Of a stretch of 64,000 nt of DNA, positions 50,935 to 62,088 are shown in pieces (positions within the stretch are counted from its first letter, which is position 1; the number at the start of each line of letters is the position of its first letter). The position numbers and the translations under genes are program-made. The stretch spans positions 1 to 64,000 of the forward strand of contig NZ_CAJATU010000163.1 of NCBI RefSeq assembly GCF_903944925.1, written 5' to 3'. The stretch is from an uncultured Rhodopila sp. (GTDB taxonomy: Bacteria; Pseudomonadota; Alphaproteobacteria; Acetobacterales; Acetobacteraceae). The notes beneath the pieces were generated by a model. The model was not told the DNA's origin, searched no databases, and saw only the letters and a list, made by a program, of their open reading frames with translations.

Positions 50935-51222
50935 ATGTCGCTCGATCACGCGACCGTCCGCCGCATCGCCTCCCTCGCTCGCATCCGGGTGGAGGAGCAC
51001 GAGGTCGAGACGCTGCGCACCGAACTCAACGGCATCCTGGGCTGGATCGAGCAGTTGAACGAGGTCGATATCGCCGGCATCGCCCCGCTGACCGGGGCCG
51101 CTAACATGGCGCTGGCGATGCGGGCGGATGTCGTCACCGACGGCGGCTATGTCGAGAAAATCCTGGCCAACGCGCCGGAGCGTATCGGCGATTTCTACGC
51201 CGTGCCGAAGGTGGTCGAGTGA
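50935..51222 (+). CDS. gatC: Asp/Glu-tRNA amidotransferase subunit GatC
   Basis: A 95-aa subunit that wraps around GatA and stabilises the GatCAB complex. The start [20 protein letters not shown] and the ending [11 protein letters not shown] are standard. AAGGA precedes the ATG. Its stop overlaps the gatA ATG by one base. The complex amidates Glu-tRNA(Gln) and/or Asp-tRNA(Asn). In relatives gatC-gatA-gatB are usually adjacent; here gatB is 7.9 kb away. Confidence 0.95.
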
Positions 51223-52700
51223 TGCTGACCGATCTGACGATCGCCGAAGCCCGCGACGGGCTGCGGGCGAAGGATTTCTCCGCCGTCGACCTGACGACGG
51301 CGCATCTGGACGCGATCGACGCGCTGAACCCGCGGCTGAACGCCTACATCACCGTCAGCCACGCCGCCGCGCTGGAGCAGGCGCGGCGGGCCGATACCGC
51401 GCTGGCGGCCGGGACGCAGCGGGCGCTGACCGGCATCCCGCTGGCCATCAAGGATCTGTTCTGCACCGAGGGCGTGCGCACCACGGCTGGCAGCAAGATC
51501 CTCGGGCCGTTCGTGCCGCCGTATGAAAGCACGGTGACCGCGCAGTTGCTGCGCGACGGCGCGGTGTTCCTCGGCAAGGCGAACCTCGATGAGTTCGCCA
51601 TGGGGTCGTCGAACATGACCTCCGCGTTCGGTCCGGTGGAAAGCCCGTGGAAGCGGCGGCAGGATCAGGCGGCGGTGCTGGTGCCGGGCGGGTCCTCCGG
51701 CGGGTCCGCCGCGGCGGTGTCGGCGCGGTTGGCGATGGGGGCGACCGGGACCGATACCGGCGGATCGATCCGGCAGCCGGCGTCGTATTGCGGGCTGGTG
51801 GGGATGAAGCCGACATATGGGCGGTGCTCGCGCTGGGGGGTGGTGGCGTTCGCGTCGTCGCTGGATCACCCCGGGCCGTTCGCGCGGACGGTGCGGGATA
51901 CGGCGATTTTGCTGGGGTCGATGGCGGGGCATGATCCGAAGGATTCGACCTCGGCTTGTGTGCCGGTGCCGGATTTCGAGGCGGCCTGCGCGCGCGGTGT
52001 TGCCGGCCTGCGGATCGGGGTGCCTCGGGAGTATCGGGCGGAGGGGATGCCGTCGGAGATCGAGGCGCTGTGGCAGCAGGGGCTGGACTGGCTGCGCGCG
52101 GCGGGGGCGGAGGTGGTGGATGTGTCGCTGCCGCATACCCGGTACGGATTGGCGACGTATTATATTGTGGCTCCGGCGGAGGCGTCGTCGAACCTGGCCC
52201 GGTACGATGGCGTGCGGTTCGGGTTGCGGCACGACGGCGAGGATCTGCGCGATTTGTATGAGCGCACCCGGGCGGAGGGTTTCGGCGCCGAGGTTCGGCG
52301 GCGGGTGTTGATCGGCACGTATGTGCTGTCGGCGGGGTATTACGATGCGTATTACCTGCGGGCGCAGAAGATCCGCGCGCTGATTTTGAAGGATTTCACC
52401 GAGGCGTTCGCGAAGGTGGATGCGCTGCTGACTCCGACGGCGCCGAGTGCTGCGTTCGCTCAGGGCGAGAACATGGATGATCCGATCAAGATGTATCTGA
52501 ACGACGTGTTCACCGTGCCGGCGAATTTGGCGGGTGTGCCGGCGGTCTCGGTGCCGGCCGGGCTGGACGCGAACGGGCTGCCGCTGGGGTTGCAGGTGAT
52601 TGGCAAGCCGTTTGATGAGGAGACGCTGTTCGCGGTGGCGGGGGCGATTGAGGCGGCGGCGGGGTTTGCGGCGGTGCCACAGGTGAGGGCGGGGGGATAG
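51222..52700 (+). CDS. gatA: Asp/Glu-tRNA amidotransferase subunit GatA
   Basis: A 492-aa amidase-signature enzyme that releases ammonia from glutamine for the GatB site. The Ser-cisSer-Lys triad is visible: Lys in [13 protein letters not shown], and the serines in [14 protein letters not shown] and [16 protein letters not shown]. Length is normal. The ATG at 51222 shares one base with the gatC stop. After its stop, 127 bp separates it from the first gene of the inserted toxin-antitoxin region. Confidence 0.96.
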
Positions 52701-52826
52701 GGGGAAGTATCTGAGCGTAGTTAGCCAACGATCCGTCGTGGCTGCGCTTTCAGAGAGACTACATAAACACGGTCTTGCCAAACGATCCGGTAAGCGTTAT
52801 TGTCCCTATGACAGGAGATAAAGGGT

Positions 52827-53594
52827 GTGCAGTTGGTCGTGAATCGTCGTGACGAGAACCCCGAGCTAGGTGGCGGTGTGTATGAAGATAGGCTCCTGGC
52901 ATTTTTCGACATTCTCGGATTCAGCAAGTTAATAGATGAGAGCATCAATGATGGCAGAAAGGCCGCTAGTATTCTTGGCCTATTGGCCAATCTGAATAAG
53001 ATATGCGCCCAATTTCAATCGGATGGCATGTCCACAACGCTGTTCTCGGATACGATCTGCATCTCATATCACAACCCACCGAACTTTGCCTCTTTCTGTT
53101 GCGGCCTCTCTATAATCGTCACGTCGCTGCTCGGGCAGGGGTACGTGGTCAGAGGTGCTGTGGTTAGAGGGCAGCTTTACCACAAGGAGAATGTAATATT
53201 CGGCCCGTGCTTGGTGCGTGCTCACAGTCTAGAAACACGTCTTGCTATATTCCCTCGTATTATTATAGACCCATTGCTGGAACTTAGTCTGAGCGATCCC
53301 GACGAGATATCCCTTCAACCAGTTTATAACGATTATGATGGACTGCGATGTGTGAACTTTCTATCCCCGGTTCTGCTGCATGTGGTTTTTTGTCTGCTGG
53401 ACATGCATGCGGAAACCCATGTCGCGGAATTGCTGACCAACGTTAGTCGCTTAATCTCCGAAACTTCGGATCAAGCCGCTTTACAAAAGCTCCACTGGCT
53501 GCGGGCGTATGCCGAGCAAACGTTGGGTTCTCCAAAGCCGAGTGACCTACTGATAGATGAATTGGTCCGCCGAATACGCAGGGCGTCATCGTAA
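52827..53594 (+). CDS. Uncharacterised protein with class III nucleotide-cyclase-like fold
   Basis: A 255-aa soluble protein, visibly AT-richer than its surroundings. LLAFFDILGFSKLIDES and TTLFSDTICISYHN place two Asp residues where class III adenylate/guanylate cyclases hold their metal ions, followed by GYVVRGAVVRGQLYHKENVI and a VRAHSLE segment like the cyclase A.xLE helix. The usual GDG is SD here, so activity or base specificity is uncertain. GTG start with AGGAG upstream. It faces an exported ClpP/SppA-like protein 9 bp away. Similar proteins occur among mobile-island genes. Function not known. Confidence 0.6.
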   Translation: MQLVVNRRDENPELGGGVYEDRLLAFFDILGFSKLIDESINDGRKAASILGLLANLNKICAQFQSDGMSTTLFSDTICISYHNPPNFASFCCGLSIIVTSLLGQGYVVRGAVVRGQLYHKENVIFGPCLVRAHSLETRLAIFPRIIIDPLLELSLSDPDEISLQPVYNDYDGLRCVNFLSPVLLHVVFCLLDMHAETHVAELLTNVSRLISETSDQAALQKLHWLRAYAEQTLGSPKPSDLLIDELVRRIRRASS

Positions 53595-53603
53595 GCAGAC
53601 TGC

Positions 53604-54506
53604 TTATTGCAAATCTTGACCTTTGATCGGGTCTGGAAATCGGCGATCCGCTTCGGTGTCGCAAGCTTTTCCAAACTCCATCCCCCTCTTATTCATGCAT
53701 TTGATTACAAATCTTAAAGAAAATTCTTTTGCAGATTCGTGCTGTCTAACGGTCGACTCGCCAAAGCGTTGAACAAGCACCTTGCGATGCTCGATAGATA
53801 TGGCTCGCTGCCATTCAGCATATGCTGCTGTCTCCCCGACGAGGCCATACGCCGAAAGTTGGTCCCATGTGAGCCATTTAATCTCGTCGGATCTTATTTG
53901 CATCATTTCGTCAAACACGATAGGCGGAAGATCCATCTCCGCCAAATATAATCTTACATCTTCACTCATTTCCTTGTATTTTTCAAGTGCCTGCTGTGGG
54001 TTCAGAGTCGAAAAGGAGTCAGATGGAAATGTAGGGCAATGTATTCCTATGGAGCCGGGTCCGGGGAGTTTGCTTACGCCTCCAGCAAATATTAGCACGC
54101 AGGCGCTTGCACATTTCTGACCTGCGGCATTTGTAAATACCCAGAGAGCATTCTTACGAACTAAACGTCCGATCTCCATTGCTTCTCGCACCGAGCCGCC
54201 AAGTGATGTTGGGCGAACGATCATAATCGGCGAGACGTTAGGAGATTTTTCATGAAATAGTGCAACCTCACGATCGATTAGCCTCTGGAAAATCGCCGCG
54301 TCTCCTGGTTGTATCTCTCCATTGATGTAGATCGTTTTACCCGGTGGCCCAACCGATATTTCCGCACAAGTAGCAGGGTTTGCCCATAGCCCTAACACAA
54401 CCACCGCAGCCAAGCCGAGCGTTGAGCCAAGCCCCCTTCTGCGCAGCCACCATTGCTGCACCAGCGATAAGCTCCCTGCTGAAATCAGACCGTTGACCAA
54501 CTGCAT
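53604..54506 (-). CDS. Exported ClpP/SppA-fold serine-protease-like protein
   Basis: A 300-aa protein with an N-terminal membrane/signal helix (LGSTLGLAAVVVLGLWANPATCA). The core matches the periplasmic ClpP-like family (COG3904 type): TSLGGSVREAMEIGRLVRKN binds substrate, the putative catalytic Ser is in KCASACVLIFAGG, and His in GSIGIHCPTFPS. A partner Asp is not obvious. The gene is AT-richer than the flanking GatCAB genes and starts at an ATG nine bases after GGAG. It is convergent with the cyclase-like gene. It may be a periplasmic or inner-membrane protease; substrates unknown. Confidence 0.7.
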   Translation of the reverse strand: MQLVNGLISAGSLSLVQQWWLRRRGLGSTLGLAAVVVLGLWANPATCAEISVGPPGKTIYINGEIQPGDAAIFQRLIDREVALFHEKSPNVSPIMIVRPTSLGGSVREAMEIGRLVRKNALWVFTNAAGQKCASACVLIFAGGVSKLPGPGSIGIHCPTFPSDSFSTLNPQQALEKYKEMSEDVRLYLAEMDLPPIVFDEMMQIRSDEIKWLTWDQLSAYGLVGETAAYAEWQRAISIEHRKVLVQRFGESTVRQHESAKEFSLRFVIKCMNKRGMEFGKACDTEADRRFPDPIKGQDLQ

Positions 54507-54609
54507 GCGCCCAATCTCCACCCTACCGGGACTATAACGCTTGCCGGATAGTTGGGCGAGTGCGTTTTCTTGGTAGTGTCGCTGAAAGAAAAGTTTCCAT
54601 TCGCCGACT

Positions 54610-54960
54610 CGCGCGCGCCTCACCCCGCCAACACCCGCAGCGCCGCCTCCGGCTCCCGCTCCACCACCCGCAGCAACGACCGACGACCGGATCGCCGGGT
54701 CCATGCCGGTGCGGGACTGCTCTCAATTGCGCACCGTCGCCACCGGCACGCCGATCGCCTTGGCGAACGCCTCCTGCGTCATCTGAAGCCGAGTCCGGAT
54801 CGCCCGCACATTCGGCACCGGCCGAAAAGGAGGAAGCGGTGCGTCCGGGTCCTCGCCGTCCTCGATTTGCTGCCGCCTGATGTCGTCCTCGGTCGTCGCC
54901 GCGATCTTGGCCCGGTCCGCAACCGGGCGGCGTGCCCTGCCCGATCACAATCGAGTCACC
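54610..54960 (-). pseudogene. Inactivated copy of the XRE antitoxin gene
   Basis: This is a near-duplicate of the intact gene at 55931-56260. The frame reads AKIAATTEDDIRRQQIEDGE, RTRLQMTQEAFAKAIGVPVA and then VRN followed by TGA where the other copy has TGG (Trp). After the stop, a short duplication (CGTCGGTCG region, about 54685) shifts the frame. The normal start is also lost (GTGATCGGGCAGG replaces ATGACGTTGGAGG). Clearly a dead copy. Confidence 0.8.
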
Positions 54961-55021
54961 TCGATAGCCGTTACCCACTGGACTGACACAGTGGCCTTTT
55001 GGCGTCTCCCGGCTAGTTCCC

Positions 55022-55050
55022 GTTTGAAAACGGTTGTGCGCGTGACGATG
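55022..55050. repeat. Direct repeat 1 in TA region
   Basis: GTTTGAAAACGGTTGTGCGC followed by GTGACGATG. It recurs at 55789-55818 in the same orientation. The pair flanks the VapBC remnant and the 67-aa gene. Confidence 0.6.
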
Positions 55051-55106
55051 TGCGTTATCACACATTCACTTGCCACCATCACCCGGCGCGTTGTGGGACA
55101 ATCCTA

Positions 55107-55352
55107 TGAACCTGACCGTGCGCATTCCCGATGAGCTTGCCGGCCGTGCGCGCAGCCGATCCCGCACGTCTGGAGCAAACGGCCCTGGAAGTGGTGTTAC
55201 GCGCCGCCGAGGACGGCGAGCGCGCCGCTCCCGGTCATGTTTCCGACCCTTCGCCGCAGGAAGCAGCGGCTCGCCTCCGCGCGGCGCGCCCGCACAACCC
55301 CCAGCCGGAAGCTGTCAGCATCCGCGAGCTGATGGTTCACGGGCATGCGTGA
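55107..55352 (+). pseudogene. Frameshifted VapB/FitA-type antitoxin
   Basis: Starts MNLTVRIPDELAGRARSRSR in one frame; the next frame holds the remainder (AADPARLEQTALEVVLRAAE to SIRELMVHGHA). The start is a ribbon-helix-helix antitoxin type. A small insertion near 55150 breaks the frame. Its end overlaps the remnant toxin start (GTGA), the usual antitoxin-toxin coupling. Confidence 0.65.
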
Positions 55353-55474
55353 GCAGCTTCGTTCTCGATAACTCGGTCGCCATGCGCTGGTGCTTTGACA
55401 GCGGCGCGCACGCCTGCGCGGACCATATCCTTAAGCCCATCGAATCCCGGCGGAGCATGGCTTTTGAGACCTGA
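55349..55474 (+). pseudogene. Truncated VapC (PIN) toxin N-terminus
   Basis: 41 codons: SSFVLDNSVAMRWCFDSGAH is a normal VapC start with the first metal Asp in LDNS. The sequence then runs into unrelated ADHILKPIESRRSMAFET and stops. More than two thirds of the PIN domain is missing. Confidence 0.7.
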
Positions 55475-55525
55475 CTATATCCCTCCCGGCCCATCCGCTG
55501 TTATACTCGACGTAGAGGTTCCAAC

Positions 55526-55729
55526 ATGGATGACGAAACCAAGGCGGCGTTCGCCGAAATGATGGCCCGTATGAACGACGGGTTCGAGCGCGTGCTCAAC
55601 GAGATCAGCACGCTCAAAACAGACTTCCAGAACACCAAGGGCTTCCTGCTCGAGGACTCTATCGTGATGGGCCGGCGCACGCTGACCATCGAAGACCGGC
55701 TCTCCGCTCTGGAACGGAAGATACAATAA
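55526..55729 (+). CDS. Small coiled-coil hypothetical protein, 67 aa
   Basis: A 67-aa, highly charged, helical protein (MDDETKAAFAEMMARMNDGF ... EDRLSALERKIQ) with heptad-like spacing of Leu/Ile/Met. An AGAGG site precedes the ATG. No family recognised. It sits between a dead VapBC pair and the XRE gene, with a direct repeat after it. Real coding is likely from composition and ribosome site, not from homology. Confidence 0.55.
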   Translation: MDDETKAAFAEMMARMNDGFERVLNEISTLKTDFQNTKGFLLEDSIVMGRRTLTIEDRLSALERKIQ

Positions 55730-55788
55730 CCTACCACTAATCACTCTTTGTCAATTTTTCGGCGTCACGGTCCGATAGTTCGCGGGCT

Positions 55789-55818
55789 GTTTGAAAAACG
55801 GTTGTACGCGTCACGATC
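55789..55818. repeat. Direct repeat 2 in TA region
   Basis: GTTTGAAAAACGGTTGTACG followed by CGTCACGATC, differing from the copy at 55022-55050 by a few bases and one insertion. Confidence 0.6.
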
Positions 55819-55930
55819 TGTTAAGAGGTGGCTGGGTTAGTCCGAACAGCATTTCGCCCCTGCTTGTGAGTCGGCCATTTGGGGCGCGCCGACGGAGTGC
55901 GGGTCCGAGCCGCCGTCCGCGGTGCTCACC

Positions 55931-56260
55931 TCATCCCCCCAACGCCCGCAACGCCGCCTCCGGCTCCCGCTCCACCACCCGCAGCAGCGACCGAACCGCC
56001 GGGTCCATGCCGGTGCGGGACTGCTCCCAATTCCGCACCGTCGCCACCGGCACGCCGATCGCCTTGGCGAACGCCTCCTGCGTCATCTGAAGCCGAGTCC
56101 GGATCGCCCGCACATTCGGCACCGCGCGAAAGGGCGGAAGCGGTGCGTCCGGGTCCTCGCCGTCCTCGATCTGCTGCCGCCTGATGTCATCCTCGGTCGT
56201 CGCCGCGATCTTGGCGCGATCCACAACCGGGCGGCTTGCCCTGATCTCCTCCAACGTCAT
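55931..56260 (-). CDS. XRE/HigA-like DNA-binding antitoxin-type protein
   Basis: A 109-aa protein with a C-terminal helix-turn-helix (LQMTQEAFAKAIGVPVATVR then NWEQSRTGMDPAVRSLLRVV), typical of antitoxins that repress their own operon. The N-terminal arm TTEDDIRRQQIEDGEDPDAP is acidic and would neutralise a partner toxin such as BrnT/HigB. No such toxin is adjacent, so it is an orphan. ATG at 56260 follows a GGAGG-like context downstream of AACGTC. A dead duplicate is at 54610-54960. Confidence 0.8.
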   Translation of the reverse strand: MTLEEIRASRPVVDRAKIAATTEDDIRRQQIEDGEDPDAPLPPFRAVPNVRAIRTRLQMTQEAFAKAIGVPVATVRNWEQSRTGMDPAVRSLLRVVEREPEAALRALGG

Positions 56261-56349
56261 CGGCTCGCGTGCAATAGGGTCCGCTCCTTCCTGTCCGCCG
56301 ACCGGGCCATGATCATCCGACGCACATCGCCGCCGCCCGACCGTATCGC

Positions 56350-56748
56350 TCAGGCCAGCATGATATCGGTCCGGGGGAAATCGTTCCCCTTGCACAGCAG
56401 CTTCGCGTCACCTTGCCGGGCGCAAGCATAGGCAAAGCAGTCGCCCATATTGAGGCCAGCCGGATGGCGCCCGTTGCCGAACCGGTCAAACGCGGCAACC
56501 GCGATGGCCGCGGTATCGCCGTCGATCGCGACGACCGTGGCGTTGATCTCCTTCAGGAACCGGCCGACCAGGGCCAAAGTCTCACCCACCGGCGCATTGG
56601 CGATACGCGCCAGACCCGTTGCCGCCTCGAAGATCGCCACGGCGGAGGTCCGCGGGCGCCGCGCCTGCGACAACCGCCCGGCCAGGCTGCCGGCATCCTC
56701 CTCCATCGCGATGATGCCGATGATCGCCGAGGCGTCCAGGAACATCAC
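56350..56748 (-). CDS. vapC: VapC-type PIN-domain ribonuclease toxin
   Basis: A 132-aa PIN domain. The first metal Asp is in MMFLDASAIIGII, Glu in SAVAIFEAATGL, and the distal acidic site in PAGLNMGDCFAYACAR. By family it cleaves tRNA or rRNA and blocks translation unless bound by VapB. The C-terminus FPRTDIMLA is normal, so the toxin looks intact. It overlaps its antitoxin gene by four bases. Confidence 0.92.
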   Translation of the reverse strand: MMFLDASAIIGIIAMEEDAGSLAGRLSQARRPRTSAVAIFEAATGLARIANAPVGETLALVGRFLKEINATVVAIDGDTAAIAVAAFDRFGNGRHPAGLNMGDCFAYACARQGDAKLLCKGNDFPRTDIMLA

Positions 56749-56987
56749 GAATGCCCGGACAGCTCATCGAAGAACGCCTTGTCGGCAGCCTGCCCGCCGG
56801 CTCGCTTCATGGCCTGGAACTGTGTCTGAACCGCCTGCAACCGCTCCGTCAGCGGCGGGATGGCACTGAGCGACGTATACTCGCGCTCCACAGCCTCCCG
56901 GATCGTCTCAGTCAGGGTCTTGCCCTTGAGGCGCGCGAGTTTGCGGACAGCCGCATCGGTTGCGGCGTCGCGGACGTGAAACGCCAT
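56745..56987 (-). CDS. vapB: VapB-type antitoxin
   Basis: An 80-aa antitoxin. The N-terminal MAFHVRDAATDAAVRKLARL region fits the PSK/RHH-type DNA-binding arm (Rv0623-like), and the C-terminal half, including KRAGGQAADKAFFDELSGHS, should wrap the toxin. It precedes vapC with an ATGA overlap. It would repress its own promoter in the 56988-57352 gap. Confidence 0.88.
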   Translation of the reverse strand: MAFHVRDAATDAAVRKLARLKGKTLTETIREAVEREYTSLSAIPPLTERLQAVQTQFQAMKRAGGQAADKAFFDELSGHS

Positions 56988-57352
56988 CGTCTACACTCCT
57001 ATGCGGCACGGTCTATACGCCTTTGGCTACACCGGCGCAAGGCGCGAGCGACCCTCCTCCTCGCCGGGTGCTCCGGCTGCGGCGCGGCGGGGTTTGCGGT
57101 GGTGGCGGCGAAAGGGTGGCAACAACAACCTGACGGGGTGTCCCGCAGACATGACTATCGGGGACCGCGGAAAACTGCGTGACCTTGCCATCGTCGTCGA
57201 GCGCTCACCACCAAGGCCGTCCGGGGCGCCCGCACCAATTCCGGCGCGGCCGTCAACCGGGCCAGTCCAGCTTCACCGGCGGCAGGTTGCCGCTGTCGCC
57301 ACTGGAATCATCGCTCGATTCAGCATATCTTCCGCTCAAAGGAGCAAACAAT
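56988..57352. other. Divergent promoter region between VapBC and ParS/RES modules
   Basis: 365 bp. It must contain both TA promoters and their operators. CTACACTCCTATGCGGCACG and GTCTATACGCC near 56992-57023 are the AT-richest parts. No gene was convincing: longer readings through it join unrelated frames. Confidence 0.5.
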
Positions 57353-57907
57353 ATGGCGCATCCGAGATCATCCGCTTCCGGGTCACCCGCCGCCAGCGGC
57401 AAACCCGGAGCCTCCGATGCGGCCAAACTCCGTGCCAAATCCGTCCCGCCCGCCGCGTCGGCCAAAGGCAATCCACCTGCCCTGTCCTACATCACCGTCT
57501 ACCGCGCCACCCCGCTGGAGCGGATCGCCATGATCAGACGCGGAATCCCAGCCTCCGAGGCAAAGCGCATCTTCGCCGACCTGTCCATCGGCCAGGGCGT
57601 AGGCTTCAGGGCGCTGAATTTATCCACCGCCACGGTCAACAAGAAGGCCAAACAAAGCGACACGCTCTCACCCGAGGAAAGCGAGCGTGTCGTCGGCTTC
57701 GCCAAACTCGTGGGTCAACTGGAGGCGATGATCCAGGACTCCGGCGATCCAACAAATTTCGACGCCCGCGCGTGGATGGCGCGCTGGCTGACCGAACCGT
57801 TGCCTGCGCTGGGCGGCGTCTGCCCGGCCGATTTGGTGGACACCATGGAGGGCCAGGGGCTGGTGTCCGCCGCGCTCGCAAAGATCCAGAGCGGCGCGTA
57901 CGCTTGA
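57353..57907 (+). CDS. Xre/ParS (MbcA-like, DUF2384) antitoxin
   Basis: A 184-aa protein. An N-terminal Ala/Ser/Lys-rich arm (residues 1-45) precedes the DNA-binding part (LERIAMIRRGIPASEAKRIF) and the C-terminal MbcA/ParS domain (VVGFAKLVGQLEAMIQDSGD, then RAWMARWLTEPLPALGG) that binds RES toxins. AAAGGAG precedes the ATG by seven bases. It overlaps the RES gene by four bases (TTGA), as expected for a toxin-antitoxin pair. Confidence 0.9.
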   Translation: MAHPRSSASGSPAASGKPGASDAAKLRAKSVPPAASAKGNPPALSYITVYRATPLERIAMIRRGIPASEAKRIFADLSIGQGVGFRALNLSTATVNKKAKQSDTLSPEESERVVGFAKLVGQLEAMIQDSGDPTNFDARAWMARWLTEPLPALGGVCPADLVDTMEGQGLVSAALAKIQSGAYA

Positions 57908-58389
57908 TTGTAACCGTCTGGCGGATCGCCACCGATACGAAAACCTATGAGGCCGACGATCTTTCCGGCGCCGGCGCGAAGATCACGGGCGGACGCTGGA
58001 ACGCCCCGGGCGATGCCCTGATCTACACCTCGGAGACGCAGGCGCTGGCGTGTTTGGAGACAGTGGTTCACCTGAACGCGGGGGGCTTGCCGCTCAACCG
58101 CTACCTCGTGGCCGTAACGATCCCGGCATCCGTGTGGGCCATTGCGCGGACGGAGACTCCCGGCAGTCTCCCTGTCGGCTGGGATGCCGATCCATCAGGC
58201 CGGGCCAGCATTCAGTTCGGCACGGCCTGGATCCAGTCGGCTGCATCCGCGCTGCTGAGAGTTCCGTCCGTCATCGTCCCTGACGAGTACAACGTGCTGA
58301 TCAATCCGCTGCATCCCGACAGCGGCGCCATCACCGCCCGCAAAATCCGGAAATGGCTCTACGATCCCCGCCTGAAAAAACTCGCCTGA
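57904..58389 (+). CDS. RES-domain NAD+-consuming toxin
   Basis: A 161-aa RES toxin. Key residues are Arg in VWRIATDTK, Tyr in KTYEADDLSGAG, GGRWNAPGDALIYTSE and the C-terminal Ser/Asn area in EYNVLINPLH. Family members degrade NAD+ to halt growth. The only start that fits is TTG at 57904, overlapping the antitoxin stop as TTGA; this would keep toxin synthesis low and coupled. The domain looks complete. Confidence 0.88.
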   Translation: MIVTVWRIATDTKTYEADDLSGAGAKITGGRWNAPGDALIYTSETQALACLETVVHLNAGGLPLNRYLVAVTIPASVWAIARTETPGSLPVGWDADPSGRASIQFGTAWIQSAASALLRVPSVIVPDEYNVLINPLHPDSGAITARKIRKWLYDPRLKKLA

Positions 58390-58396
58390 CGGTTTC

Positions 58397-58500
58397 GCTC
58401 AGGCCAGCGTGATGTCGGTGAGTTGCCGGGCACAGGCACACGCGAAGCAATCGCGAAGATCGCCACGGCGGAGGTCCGCGGGCGCCGCGCCTGCGGCGTT
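58397..58500 (-). pseudogene. Fragment of a vapC gene
   Basis: GCTCAGGCCAGCGTGATGTC matches the end of the intact vapC (56347-56366, with few changes). GAAGATCGCCACGGCGGAGG and the following GTCCGCGGGCGCCGCGCCTG match its middle at 56631-56670. About 230 bp between these is deleted. It is a dead relative of the vapC 2 kb away. Confidence 0.75.
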
Positions 58501-58649
58501 GGCTACAACGGCACCGAACGGCTGGGCAATGCGGACTGGTTCGGCGGCGAGGTCCTCGCCGGGTCGGCTCCTGCGGGTGCGTCACGGGTCGAAGCCGAGA
58601 GCCAAACCGGAGGGCTTCGCAAATTGCAGATGTGCCATCCCGGAATGTG

Positions 58650-58666
58650 ATTGTGCAGTGCACAAT
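58650..58666. promoter_or_regulatory. 17-bp perfect palindrome upstream of the CBS gene
   Basis: ATTGTGCA-G-TGCACAAT, with exact 8-bp arms, centred 89 bp before the ATG. It looks like a site for a homodimeric regulator. None of the standard CRP/FNR half-sites (TGTGA, TTGAT) fits well. Confidence 0.5.
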
Positions 58667-58746
58667 AAACATTGCGGCCGCTGCCGATTTGGCGGATTTC
58701 TTGGCGCGATACCGCGAGTGCGAATTAGCCTTGAAAGGATCGTTCA

Positions 58747-59187
58747 ATGACAATTGCAGCCATACTCAAACAGAAGCCCCACAACCTTGTAGTCGTCCGC
58801 CAGACGGATCGGGTTTTCGACGTCGTCCGCGGCCTGGCCCGGCAGAAAATCGGCGTGGCCGTGGTGATGGAAGGCGACACCCTCATCGGCATCATCAGTG
58901 AGCGCGATGTCATGCGCGGCCTCGAAGCCGAGGGACCCGCGGTGCTCGAGACGGCGGTCGGCCAGCATATGATCCGCAACGTCAGGACATGCTCGCCGCA
59001 CACCACCATCGATCAGGCGATTGACGCGATGACCAAGGGCCGGTTCCGCCACCTGCCCGTCCTGGACGAGGGCAAGCTGCTGGGGGTGATCAGCATCCGC
59101 GATCTGCTGAACTCCATGGTCGCCAAGCAGGCGGTCGATGTCACCTCGCTATGCGGCTACGTTACGGGCGCCTACGCCCGGGTCTGA
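58747..59187 (+). CDS. Two-CBS-domain protein
   Basis: A 146-aa stand-alone CBS pair. The first domain is about residues 8-62 (VVRQTDRVFDVVRGLARQKI, GIISERDVMRG), the second about 72-128 (VRTCSPHTTIDQAIDAMTKG, RFRHLPVLDEGKLLGVISIR). The pair forms a Bateman module that binds adenine nucleotides. It has no attached enzyme, so it is probably a regulator or hibernation-type factor. Located in the TA-rich region, yet of typical composition. Confidence 0.9.
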   Translation: MTIAAILKQKPHNLVVVRQTDRVFDVVRGLARQKIGVAVVMEGDTLIGIISERDVMRGLEAEGPAVLETAVGQHMIRNVRTCSPHTTIDQAIDAMTKGRFRHLPVLDEGKLLGVISIRDLLNSMVAKQAVDVTSLCGYVTGAYARV

Positions 59188-59226
59188 CCGGAGAACGGCA
59201 AGGCGGCGAGGCGTCCGCGTGACGGT

Positions 59227-59853
59227 TCACGTGCTCGCCCGCCGCCATCCGGCGGCCAGAAAACCCGCCCCGATCAAAAGGGAACCGCCGGTGCGATTGA
59301 CCAGCCGCTGGACACGTGGCTGCCGCACTGTCTGTCGTGCGGCAGCGGCCAGCAGCGCGAACATCATCGCGTTCAGAGCCGCCAGTGTTACGAAGGTCGC
59401 CTCCAGCGTTACGACCTGGGGAAGCAACGGCCGTGTTGCGTCCAGGAATTGCGGGACGAACGCGACGAAGAACACGATACTCTTCGGGTTGAGCGCGGTG
59501 ACCGCATAGGCATGGCCAAGCATGCGCACCGGGCTGACCCTCGGCAGGTCATCGATATCGGCCGCGCGCACAGGTGCTCGCCACAGCGCGACGCCCAGGT
59601 AGATCAGGTAGGCACCGCCGATCCAGCGCAGCACGGTGAAAATCGTGGCGGAGGTGGCCAGGATGGCGCCCAGGCCCAGCATGGACGCGGTCATGGCGGT
59701 CAGATCGCCAAGTGCCACGCCTGTAACAACGCCAGCGGCGGCCTTTCGGCCGTGACCGAGTGCATAGGAAATCACCAGCAGCACCGTAGGTCCCGGAATC
59801 GCCAGCAGGATCACGGACGCGGCCACGAACGCCAACCAGTGGTCGAACGGCAT
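59227..59853 (-). CDS. LysE/RhtB-family amino acid exporter
   Basis: A 208-aa membrane protein with six helices. The family signature AIPGPTVLLVISYALGHGRK is at residues 19-38, and NPKSIVFFVAFVPQF is the second. It exports amino acids or homoserine lactones with proton exchange. GGAGGAGAG precedes the ATG at 59853. It lies 29 bp after mazF on the same strand but probably has its own function. Confidence 0.92.
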   Translation of the reverse strand: MPFDHWLAFVAASVILLAIPGPTVLLVISYALGHGRKAAAGVVTGVALGDLTAMTASMLGLGAILATSATIFTVLRWIGGAYLIYLGVALWRAPVRAADIDDLPRVSPVRMLGHAYAVTALNPKSIVFFVAFVPQFLDATRPLLPQVVTLEATFVTLAALNAMMFALLAAAARQTVRQPRVQRLVNRTGGSLLIGAGFLAAGWRRAST

Positions 59854-59882
59854 TGACGCACTCTCCTCCGCAACGAACCATT

Positions 59883-60227
59883 TTATTCGGCAAAGACGGC
59901 CTGTAGCCTGGTCAGCGTTACGCTCATGGTACGGGCATCGACGGCGCCCAACCGCCTGACCAGCCGCTGCTTGTCGAGGGCGCGGATCTGATCGAGCAGG
60001 ATCAACCCCGCCTTGTCCTCGAACCGAACAGCGACCCGGAACGGCGCGGGCCGGTTGCCCGTTGTCATCGGCGCTGCCAGTACTGTTCGCAGATGGTCGT
60101 GCATCTCGGGCGGAGAAATGATGACGCATGGCCGAGTTTTCTGAATTTCGGCGCCAACGGTCGGATCGAGCGCCGCCAACCAGATATCGCCGCGCACCGG
60201 ACCAACAACTGGCGGACGCTTTACCAT
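59883..60227 (-). CDS. mazF: MazF/PemK-type endoribonuclease toxin
   Basis: A 114-aa toxin. VRGDIWLAALDPTVGAEIQK holds the conserved start, KTRPCVIISPP the catalytic Arg region, and LAAPMTTGNRPAPFRV the Thr. LDQIRALDKQRLVRRLG completes the fold. It cleaves mRNA when free of antitoxin. It starts within the mazE end (7-bp overlap). Looks functional. Confidence 0.92.
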   Translation of the reverse strand: MVKRPPVVGPVRGDIWLAALDPTVGAEIQKTRPCVIISPPEMHDHLRTVLAAPMTTGNRPAPFRVAVRFEDKAGLILLDQIRALDKQRLVRRLGAVDARTMSVTLTRLQAVFAE

Positions 60228-60475
60228 ACGAGTTCATCGTCACCAGCATTGCCGAACTCGGGCCAGACGAGCGCGTCGTCACCACAGGCGGCGATGGCCT
60301 TGGATGCCTCCGCCCAGCCGCTCCGCGGATGCGGCTTTGCCGGCGTCAGGACGACGCGGCCTTTTTCCAAGGTCAGCGACAGGTCGTCACCGGCTTTGAC
60401 GCCTAATTCCGCCAATACCGGCTTGGGCAGGATGATACCGGCGGAATTGCCCATCCGCCGTACAGATGCACGCAT
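60221..60475 (-). CDS. mazE: MazE-type AbrB-fold antitoxin
   Basis: An 84-aa antitoxin. The swapped-hairpin DNA-binding domain (VRRMGNSAGIILPKPVLAEL then GVKAGDDLSLTLEKGRVVL) is followed by an acidic Trp-containing C-terminal tail (DALVWPEFGNAGDDELVW) that blocks MazF. It is first in the pair and presumably represses its own promoter in the gap before gatB. Confidence 0.92.
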   Translation of the reverse strand: MRASVRRMGNSAGIILPKPVLAELGVKAGDDLSLTLEKGRVVLTPAKPHPRSGWAEASKAIAACGDDALVWPEFGNAGDDELVW

Positions 60476-60624
60476 TTCACTCGGCTCCCTGGCAGCACCG
60501 CGATCCCGATCCGCTTACGTGCCAACAATGTTCTTACGGCATGAGCCTGCCTGCATTCAAGCTTCGGGTTGCGACCCCCTCCCCGGACCGTTAAACATCT
60601 GACCGAACTCGAAAGGCCCCCGCG

Positions 60625-62088
60625 ATGACCTACACCCTTGAAGGCTCAACCGGCACCTGGGAAGTTGTGATCGGCCTTGAAGTCCACGCCCAGGTGATCA
60701 GCAGCGCCAAGCTGTTCAGCGGCGCCGCCACCAATTTCGGCGCGGAGCCGAACAGCCAGGTCAGCTTCGTCGACGCCGGTTTCCCCGGCATGCTGCCGGT
60801 CCTCAACGGTGAGTGCGTCGCCCAGGCGGTGCGCACCGGCCTCGGGCTGAACGCGAACATCCACATGGTCAGCCGCTTCGACCGGAAGAACTATTTCTAC
60901 GCCGATTTGCCGTCGGGCTACCAGATCAGCCAGTATGAGCACCCGATCGTCGGCACCGGGGAGGTCGAGGTCGAACTCGCCGACGGTTCCACCAAGACCA
61001 TCGGCATCACCCGCCTGCACCTGGAACAGGACGCCGGGAAGTCGATCCACGACCAGCACGCCACCAAGTCGCTGATCGACCTGAACCGATCCGGCGTCGC
61101 GCTGATGGAGATCGTCTCGGAACCCGACATCCGCACGCCGGAGGAAGCCGGTGCGTACTTACGGAAACTGCGCTCCATCCTGCGCTACCTCGGCACCTGC
61201 GACGGCAACATGGAGGAAGGCTCCATGCGCGCCGACGTCAACGTGTCCGTCCGCCATCACGGGGAGCCATACCGGACGCGCTGCGAGATCAAGAACGTCA
61301 ACTCCATCCGCTTCGTCATGCAGGCGATCGAGGCGGAGGCGGCTCGCCAGGTCGAGGTGTGGGAGTCGGGCGGGACGGTGATCCAGGAGACGCGGCTGTT
61401 CGACAGCAACCGCGGCGTGACGCGTTCGATGCGGTCGAAGGAGGACGCGCACGATTACCGTTACTTCCCCGATCCGGACCTGCTGCCGCTGGTGCTGGAG
61501 GCGGACTGGGTCGCGGCGCTGAAGGCATCGCTGCCCGAGTTGCCGGACGCCAAGCGGGCGCGTTTCATACAGTCGTATGGGCTGTCGCCGTATGACGCCG
61601 CTGTGCTGGTCGCCGAGAAGGCCACCGCCGACTTCTATGAAACGGTCGCTAACGGACGCGATCCGAAGATCGCCGCCAACTGGGTGACCGGCGACTTCTT
61701 CGCCGCGTTGAACCGCCTCGGCCGCACCATCGAGGATACGCCTGTGACGGCGGCGGCGTTGGGCGGTCTGCTGGATCTGATTGCCGACAGCACCATCAAC
61801 GGGCGCATCGCCAAGGACGTATTCGAGGCGATGGCGGAAACCGGCAAGGACGCCGCCACGATCGTCGATGAGAAGGGGCTGCGGCAGGTCACCGACACCG
61901 GTGCGATCGACGAGGCGGTTGACCGCATCCTGGCGGCCAATCCGGACAAGGTGGCGGAGTATCGAGCGGGAAAGGACAAGCTGTTCGGGTTCTTTGTCGG
62001 CCAGACCATGAAGGCGATGGCGGGAAAGGGCAATCCGGCGCTGATTAACGAAACTTTGAAGCAGAAGCTGGCCGCCAAGAAGGAGTAG
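60625..62088 (+). CDS. gatB: Asp/Glu-tRNA amidotransferase subunit GatB
   Basis: A 487-aa subunit that phosphorylates and amidates the tRNA-bound Asp/Glu. [20 protein letters not shown] starts the family; [14 protein letters not shown] and [20 protein letters not shown] are its core motifs, and a YqeY-type C-terminal domain closes it ([20 protein letters not shown]). Complete and without lesion. It should be in operon with gatCA but is separated by the TA region, so it needs its own promoter between 60476 and 60624. Confidence 0.96.

Follow-up and report, generated by a model that had tools for sequence, protein, structure and literature searches.

A horizontally mobile family of class III cyclase-like proteins, represented by a stand-alone gene in a variable gatA-gatB slot of an uncultured Rhodopila

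The class III cyclases (PF00211; Rv1625c, 7yz9) combine a common core fold and two metal-binding Asp residues with a G-D motif, an Asn-Arg transition-state pair and a Lys/Glu base selector, although Asn is missing also in some established cyclases (PMC4886424). The DUF2652 proteins are described as mostly single-domain and predicted to be cytosolic, with an average length of 250 aa and both metal Asp kept; a mycobacterial DUF2652 set has lost the Asn and kept the Arg, and the selector is a Lys-Glu or Glu-Lys/Arg pair, accompanied by Arg in most rows of the table (PMC4886424). The PycC cyclases of Pycsar systems form another group of single-domain, mobile proteins with a class III fold, in which base selection uses varied residues (PMC11224242).

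Here we describe a 255-aa protein encoded in a stretch of 64,000 nucleotides from an uncultured Rhodopila sp. (NZ_CAJATU010000163.1, positions 1 to 64,000; this whole stretch is called the window). This protein is a member of a large, undescribed, unnamed and horizontally mobile bacterial family that has the core fold and both metal Asp in common with class III cyclases, and whose sequence falls in register with their R-x-G...G strand and FG...LE helix. Unlike those enzymes, the family has S-D for G-D, is without the Asn-Arg pair and without a Lys/Glu selector, and possesses a conserved C-terminal helix. Its base-selector positions, like those of PycC, differ from purine cyclases (PMC11224242), but unlike PycC its Asn column is not N in 99 of 109 members. 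Because an adjacent cNMP-binding effector was not found beside the family genes, the family is not a ‘Pycsar’ system as this is defined. It resembles the DUF2652 proteins in being single-domain, predicted to be cytosolic and ~250 aa long, in keeping the metal Asp and, as far as the mycobacterial set is concerned, in having lost the Asn, but the latter proteins keep a selector and, in most table rows, the Arg, and the family does not (PMC4886424).

The gene pair and its slot between gatA and gatB

The features discussed below are listed by their position in the window.

51219..52700, plus strand: gatA, which borders the variable slot on the left (ORF list, sister-genome comparison)
52707..54617, no strand assigned: cargo, whose place is taken by unrelated sequence in both sister genomes, G232 and G205 (sister-genome comparison)
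52827..53594, plus strand: stand-alone 255-aa class III cyclase-homology protein, GTG start (ORF list, alignment, model)
53604..54506, minus strand: 300-aa ClpP-fold protein with an N-terminal hydrophobic segment (profile match, alignment)
54618..54960 (right end approximate), minus strand: right-hand border of the cargo, formed by a copy of the HTH antitoxin gene 55931-56395 that is broken by an in-frame stop
60625..62088, plus strand: gatB, which bounds the entire 7.9-kb gatA-gatB insertion on the right (sequence comparison)

The gene for the 255-aa protein is preceded by an AGGAG ribosome-binding site 9 nt 5' of its GTG and, as described in the first-pass annotation, converges on the ClpP-like gene (stop at 53604-53606) with 9 bases between the two stops. 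A short palindrome, TAAGCAGACTGCTTA, at window positions 53592-53606 holds both stop codons. The longer listed minus-strand ORF of the ClpP-like gene reaches 54704 by running through the broken HTH antitoxin copy, so the ATG at 54506 is its likely start, and the start chosen in that annotation is better than the one at 54704. Both genes are indeed AT-richer than their surroundings, at ~50% GC (49.7% for the 255-aa gene and 49.2% for the ClpP-like gene) against ~65% (64.7%) for the window, and an AT-richness equal to that of the 255-aa gene occurs in 1.6% of 768-bp windows.

Comparison with two sister genomes, whose GatA proteins are 97% (G232) and 96% (G205) identical to that of the window, defines the borders of the cargo: the window aligns with both genomes up to 52706 and again from ~54618, and a significant match to 52707-54617 is absent from the G232 and G205 stretches compared. 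Because the sister genomes carry other genes at this place, the 255-aa and ClpP-like genes constitute one exchangeable cargo. The slot of G232 (L165:1758-4703) is occupied by three minus-strand genes, named by eye as caspase-like (YYAGHG, FDTCN), trypsin-like and glycine-rich exported, which possibly represent a defence-like set, and the slot of G205 contains a transposase and membrane proteins (named from motifs by eye). At its right end, the cargo abuts the left of two HTH antitoxin gene copies (repeats D1 and D2, window 54613-54939 and 55924-56243) that are 90-95% alike, the left one being broken. The genes farther downstream, which by eye we take to be an HTH antitoxin, a PIN/VapC-like gene with its antitoxin, a RES-like gene with its partner and a MazF-like gene, are of kinds that fit the earlier description of the region as ‘TA-dense’.

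A sample of 28 other genomes of the genus, in 24 of which the region downstream of gatA was inspected, places this slot in a wider context. The gatB gene was found on the same stretch as gatA in 19 of the 24 genomes and was absent from the stretch in five; in the 19, the gap between the two genes amounts to 5-10 bases (six genomes), 139-1258 bases (11 genomes) or 3.8 and 6.9 kb (one each), compared with 7.9 kb (52700-60625) in the window. Gaps that range from 5 bases to 7.9 kb indicate that the gatA-gatB junction is a repeated gene-gain site in the genus. In one stretch (L187), 16.5 kb extend from gatA to the contig end without gatB.

The second gene of the cargo had been described as encoding a membrane-anchored or exported ClpP/SppA-like protein, and this description was supported as regards the fold of ClpP and the pairing of Ser and His. 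A profile of the protein aligned with ten relatives, which come from plasmids and from relatives of the host, matches ClpP (6cfd) among PDB sequences at 2.4e-6 and places both residues in register with the catalytic pair; G103, G104, C132, S134, C136 and H156 are invariant in all 11 aligned sequences, in which they form the motifs G-G, C-x-S-A-C (Ser134) and G-x-H (His156). The acidic stretch before an L-T motif, a candidate for the third catalytic Asp, varies among the relatives. Since the AlphaFold2 single-sequence model reaches a pLDDT of only 38.4, the assignment of the ClpP-like fold is based on the profile match. Export, which was read by eye from the N-terminal hydrophobic stretch, is likely. 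Exported ClpP-fold proteins of Alphaproteobacteria share the GG loop, C-x-S-A-C and G-x-H with the window protein, which is divergent compared with them (23-35% identity to the ten relatives aligned). Proteins of this kind, presumably COG3904-like, occur in Alphaproteobacteria and Pseudomonas, and a confirmed match was absent when viral contigs were scanned with the ClpP-like protein.

Spread and mobility of the cyclase-like family

When Pfam, NCBIfam, PADLOC and the PDB were searched with the 255-aa sequence alone, its family did not turn up, and weak matches to DUF6452 and to an antibody chain look like chance. With family members as queries, the copies of Pfam, NCBIfam and PADLOC that were searched again yielded no matching family; a description of the family was also not recognised in a literature search of open-licence papers, which is weak as evidence of absence. 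The profile of a first alignment (A1), built from plasmid relatives of the 255-aa protein, gave 228 confirmed matches in the contigs of GTDB species, from which the best 80 were kept, and 20 in viral contigs; tblastn searches of phages gave no match. Within the phylum, the family profile matched 12 of 298 other genomes (13 of 299 with the window's own), and among the 13 matches outside the own genome three that were partial, broken or weak were left out, so that 10 neighbourhoods were inspected, of which L211 and L212 repeat L040 and L032. A single-sequence search within the order matched 4 of 200 genomes, the own genome included.

From a total of 116 family ORFs, removal of five duplicates and of both halves of the frame-broken L006 left 109 distinct members. 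A second alignment (A2), drawn from 96 rows with L060, L090, L091 and L115 (short or cut) left out, contains 93 rows including the window protein and is without the plasmid loci and the loci from the genome-sample search; identity of its rows to the window protein is only 19-31%. The tree of the 109 members (a quick search with SH-aLRT support only) mixes phyla, and its short-branched clades span classes, as illustrated by one clade (SH-aLRT 99) with close members in Porticoccus, Colwelliaceae, Vibrio, Ectothiorhodospira, Paracaedibacteraceae and Pantoea. The window protein forms a long lone branch whose sister is without support. Family copies are also present on plasmids and viral contigs, and the distribution of the family is patchy and mobile.

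On two rhizobial plasmids (L128:1-4795 and L129:1-4813), the cyclase-like gene lies directly 3' of repA-repB-repC on the same strand. A copy on an Acinetobacter plasmid (L006:5001-5744) is split over two open stretches and only partly annotated, and L080:5965-7830 contains a tandem of two family members.

Fold and active site

An AlphaFold2 model of the 255-aa protein based on 93 sequences (pLDDT 88.8, pTM 0.84) has the element order beta-alpha-beta-beta-alpha-beta, which is that of the class III cyclase core. Foldseek found 59 matches in the PDB at E <=0.001, and the 50 of these 59 that were listed are all class III cyclases. The best PDB match by VIA-align is the Rv1625c catalytic domain (7yz9; Z 15.7 over 156 residues at 2.8 A), and among the 50 matches listed by this method all are class III cyclases; a PycC structure does not occur in these 50 rows, which speaks neither for nor against a relationship with PycC. 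As a yardstick, the best Z is usually 7 to 8 for models without a clear Foldseek match. The link of the family to cyclases at the level of sequence would by itself be weak. When the A1 profile was compared with PDB sequences, the cyclase 3mr7 appeared below threshold (E 0.059), in register over R-G-G...G...FGPA...LE, and with the A2 profile a designed bundle (0.055) and an adhesin (0.17) outrank the cyclase 1yk9 (0.9). An hhalign comparison of the family with the host's five PF00211 cyclases gave a weak match (probability 0.6 percent, E 0.092), PF00211 matches 1 of 93 members (at 0.0034) and does not match the window protein, and Pfam DUF2652 has no match among the 93 members with an E of 0.01 or lower.

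The two metal-binding Asp residues read from the 255-aa protein at first pass, D28 in FFDILGFS and D75 in FSDTICIS, are both kept in 107 of the 107 members having both columns. Across the 109 members, conserved residues are D75 (109), S74 (108), R109 (108), D28 (107, with 2 gaps), G115 (105), R144 (104), K221 (104), W224 (100) and H119 (86); G110 (in R109-G110) and P143 (in P143-R144) are also conserved, and K221 and W224 lie in the conserved C-terminal helix. The absence of a GDG motif, also noticed at first pass, is confirmed and extends to the family, as SD replaces the GD of class III cyclases and position 74 is S in 108 of 109 members. In the transition-state columns, which were assigned from the register of the 3mr7 profile match, 10 of the 109 members have N and nine have R, but not one has both, and the window protein has V and S. 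The base-selector column (D75 minus 4) contains T in 43 and S in 32 of the 109 members (75 with T/S) and T71 in the window protein, and Lys/Glu is not conserved there. The family is thus homologous to the class III cyclases but lacks two of their chemical hallmarks, the Asn-Arg pair and the base selector; it is not filed as a class III cyclase. The proposal that the protein is cyclase-like stands for the fold and for both metal Asp; a conserved Asn-Arg pair or base selector does not come with them.

We lean towards the view that these proteins represent an undescribed, mobile family of stand-alone cytosolic proteins with a class III fold, a rebuilt active site that handles a different base or makes a different product, and a role in mobile-element conflict. 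At the metal site, it is likely that the family works like a class III cyclase, and each protomer would hold two metal ions via D28 (at the end of beta1) and D75 (in the beta2-beta3 turn), the catalytic unit presumably being a homodimer, arranged head to tail, with a nucleoside triphosphate as its ligand. We infer that the active site has been rebuilt because the Asn-Arg pair and the selector are gone while R109, H119, P143-R144, K221 and W224 are kept, and such a site could accommodate a different base or yield a different product, most likely in a nucleotidyl cyclase or a related nucleotidyl transferase. The 255-aa protein is probably a mobile, cytosolic, metal-dependent nucleotide enzyme, namely a nucleotidyl cyclase of unusual specificity, which may act as a signal-maker or a nucleotide sensor in mobile-element conflict; the cyclic-nucleotide signalling or defence role suggested for it earlier is possible. 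In this genome, its gene would travel with an unrelated ClpP-fold gene in the gatA-gatB hotspot, and the most economical reading of the locus is that of a mobile nucleotide enzyme in a gain-and-loss slot beside TA-looking gene pairs. If active, the family would give the class III cyclases a widespread, uncurated branch whose active site departs from the canonical one. It would also provide a candidate signal for mobile-element conflict, one that is missed by the copies of Pfam, NCBIfam and PADLOC that were searched.

Since the transition-state N and R are never both present, the family could also be catalytically dead. As a cyclase-homology domain of this type, it would bind a nucleotide or another ligand and regulate a partner, such as a ParA-like ATPase, a possibility that we take seriously but consider less than probable. 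Loss of the Asn-Arg pair throughout the family is in line with this proposal, as is the fact that an effector gene for a nucleotide signal was not found beside the family genes, but the presence of the metal Asp in 107 of 107 members at 19-31% identity is hard to explain without metal-dependent chemistry. If dead, the family would illustrate on a large scale how a cyclase fold can be retained for metal or ligand binding.

Neighbours of family loci

Among the neighbours, the family met most often is that of a ParA-like ATPase (~350 aa), encoded directly upstream on the same strand in 8 loci (L043:4909-6636, L014, L053, L083, L094, L105, L107 and L108) that comprise one side of a tree branch (SH-aLRT 88). 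The same unit is found in 1 of 10 phylum-sample loci (L214:3850-5748; two of the ten repeat earlier loci), and its hosts include Gram-negative bacteria, Gram-positive bacteria and viral contigs. A PADLOC scan of the ParA-like proteins of L043 and L107 gave no match, and neither did a search of E. coli genomes with the Buttiauxella ParA-cyclase module. Such a dedicated gene is what a regulatory, catalytically dead domain might be expected to have as its partner, but most family members, including that of the window, are without a ParA-like neighbour. The ParA-like/cyclase-like pair nevertheless constitutes a compact two-gene module. A broader proposal, which we hold to be unlikely, is that of a new phylum-crossing nucleotide-signal or decoy family directed against mobile elements, with a class III fold whose rebuilt active site would form a product other than cAMP, cGMP, cUMP or cCMP, and with one ParA-coupled clade.

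It is less likely still that the family is a new clade of Pycsar-type pyrimidine cyclases with an effector encoded elsewhere. Its single-domain class III fold, mobile distribution and metal Asp would suit such a clade, as would a selector position that is T/S in 75 of 109 members and neither Lys nor Glu, but none of the 93 members is matched by the PADLOC PycC models with an E of 0.01 or lower, although these models do match 3 of 3 host cyclases tested. In addition, a CNBD model that recovered 12 of 12 left-out domains had 0 matches in 6339 ORFs of 126 family loci (the window's own counted twice), and in the 10 phylum-sample loci there is one CNBD ORF, 2.2 kb from the family gene. A Pycsar locus used as a control (L210), on the other hand, shows a CNBD match (3e-11) directly beside a cyclase that, by eye, keeps the Asn.

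This Pycsar locus, with its cyclase and CNBD effector, and a family member (L213) are located ~72 kb apart on one contig (C86 of G328).

That the cyclase-like and ClpP-like proteins form one module, in which a cytosolic cyclic nucleotide is linked to an envelope protease, is scarcely credible, as their like GC, common cargo slot and spacing of 9 bases are offset by the convergent gene order, by the different compartments of the two proteins if export of the ClpP-like protein is right, and by the outcome of searches in both directions, in which the ClpP-like profile matches only the window's gene among 135 family loci (flanks <=6 kb; none in the 134 others, at least seven of which repeat another locus) and the family profile has no match in the 16 loci that carry ClpP-like relatives (in most of which the flanking sequence covered was 1.5 to 6 kb). 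A linked pair is therefore not supported, the recurrence proposed as a test at first pass being seen in neither direction; earlier single-sequence searches for co-occurrence had the same outcome, the pairing not being seen, and the ClpP-like neighbour looks like an unrelated passenger.

Other neighbours form smaller clusters of 3 to 5 loci each. Pfam matches of the direct neighbours include the housekeeping genes alanyl-tRNA synthetase, thymidylate synthase and LysR among those listed (25 of 116), which speaks against a role in conflict, and a PADLOC search of 107 direct neighbours at 1e-20 has Type I restriction, Avs1a, LmuA and PifA among the matches listed (25 of 137 models). AbiEi/AbiEii are found, by annotation, among the direct neighbours, and a Dsr1 gene adjoins one family locus (L010); these defence-model matches leave the impression of an enrichment of defence genes around family members.
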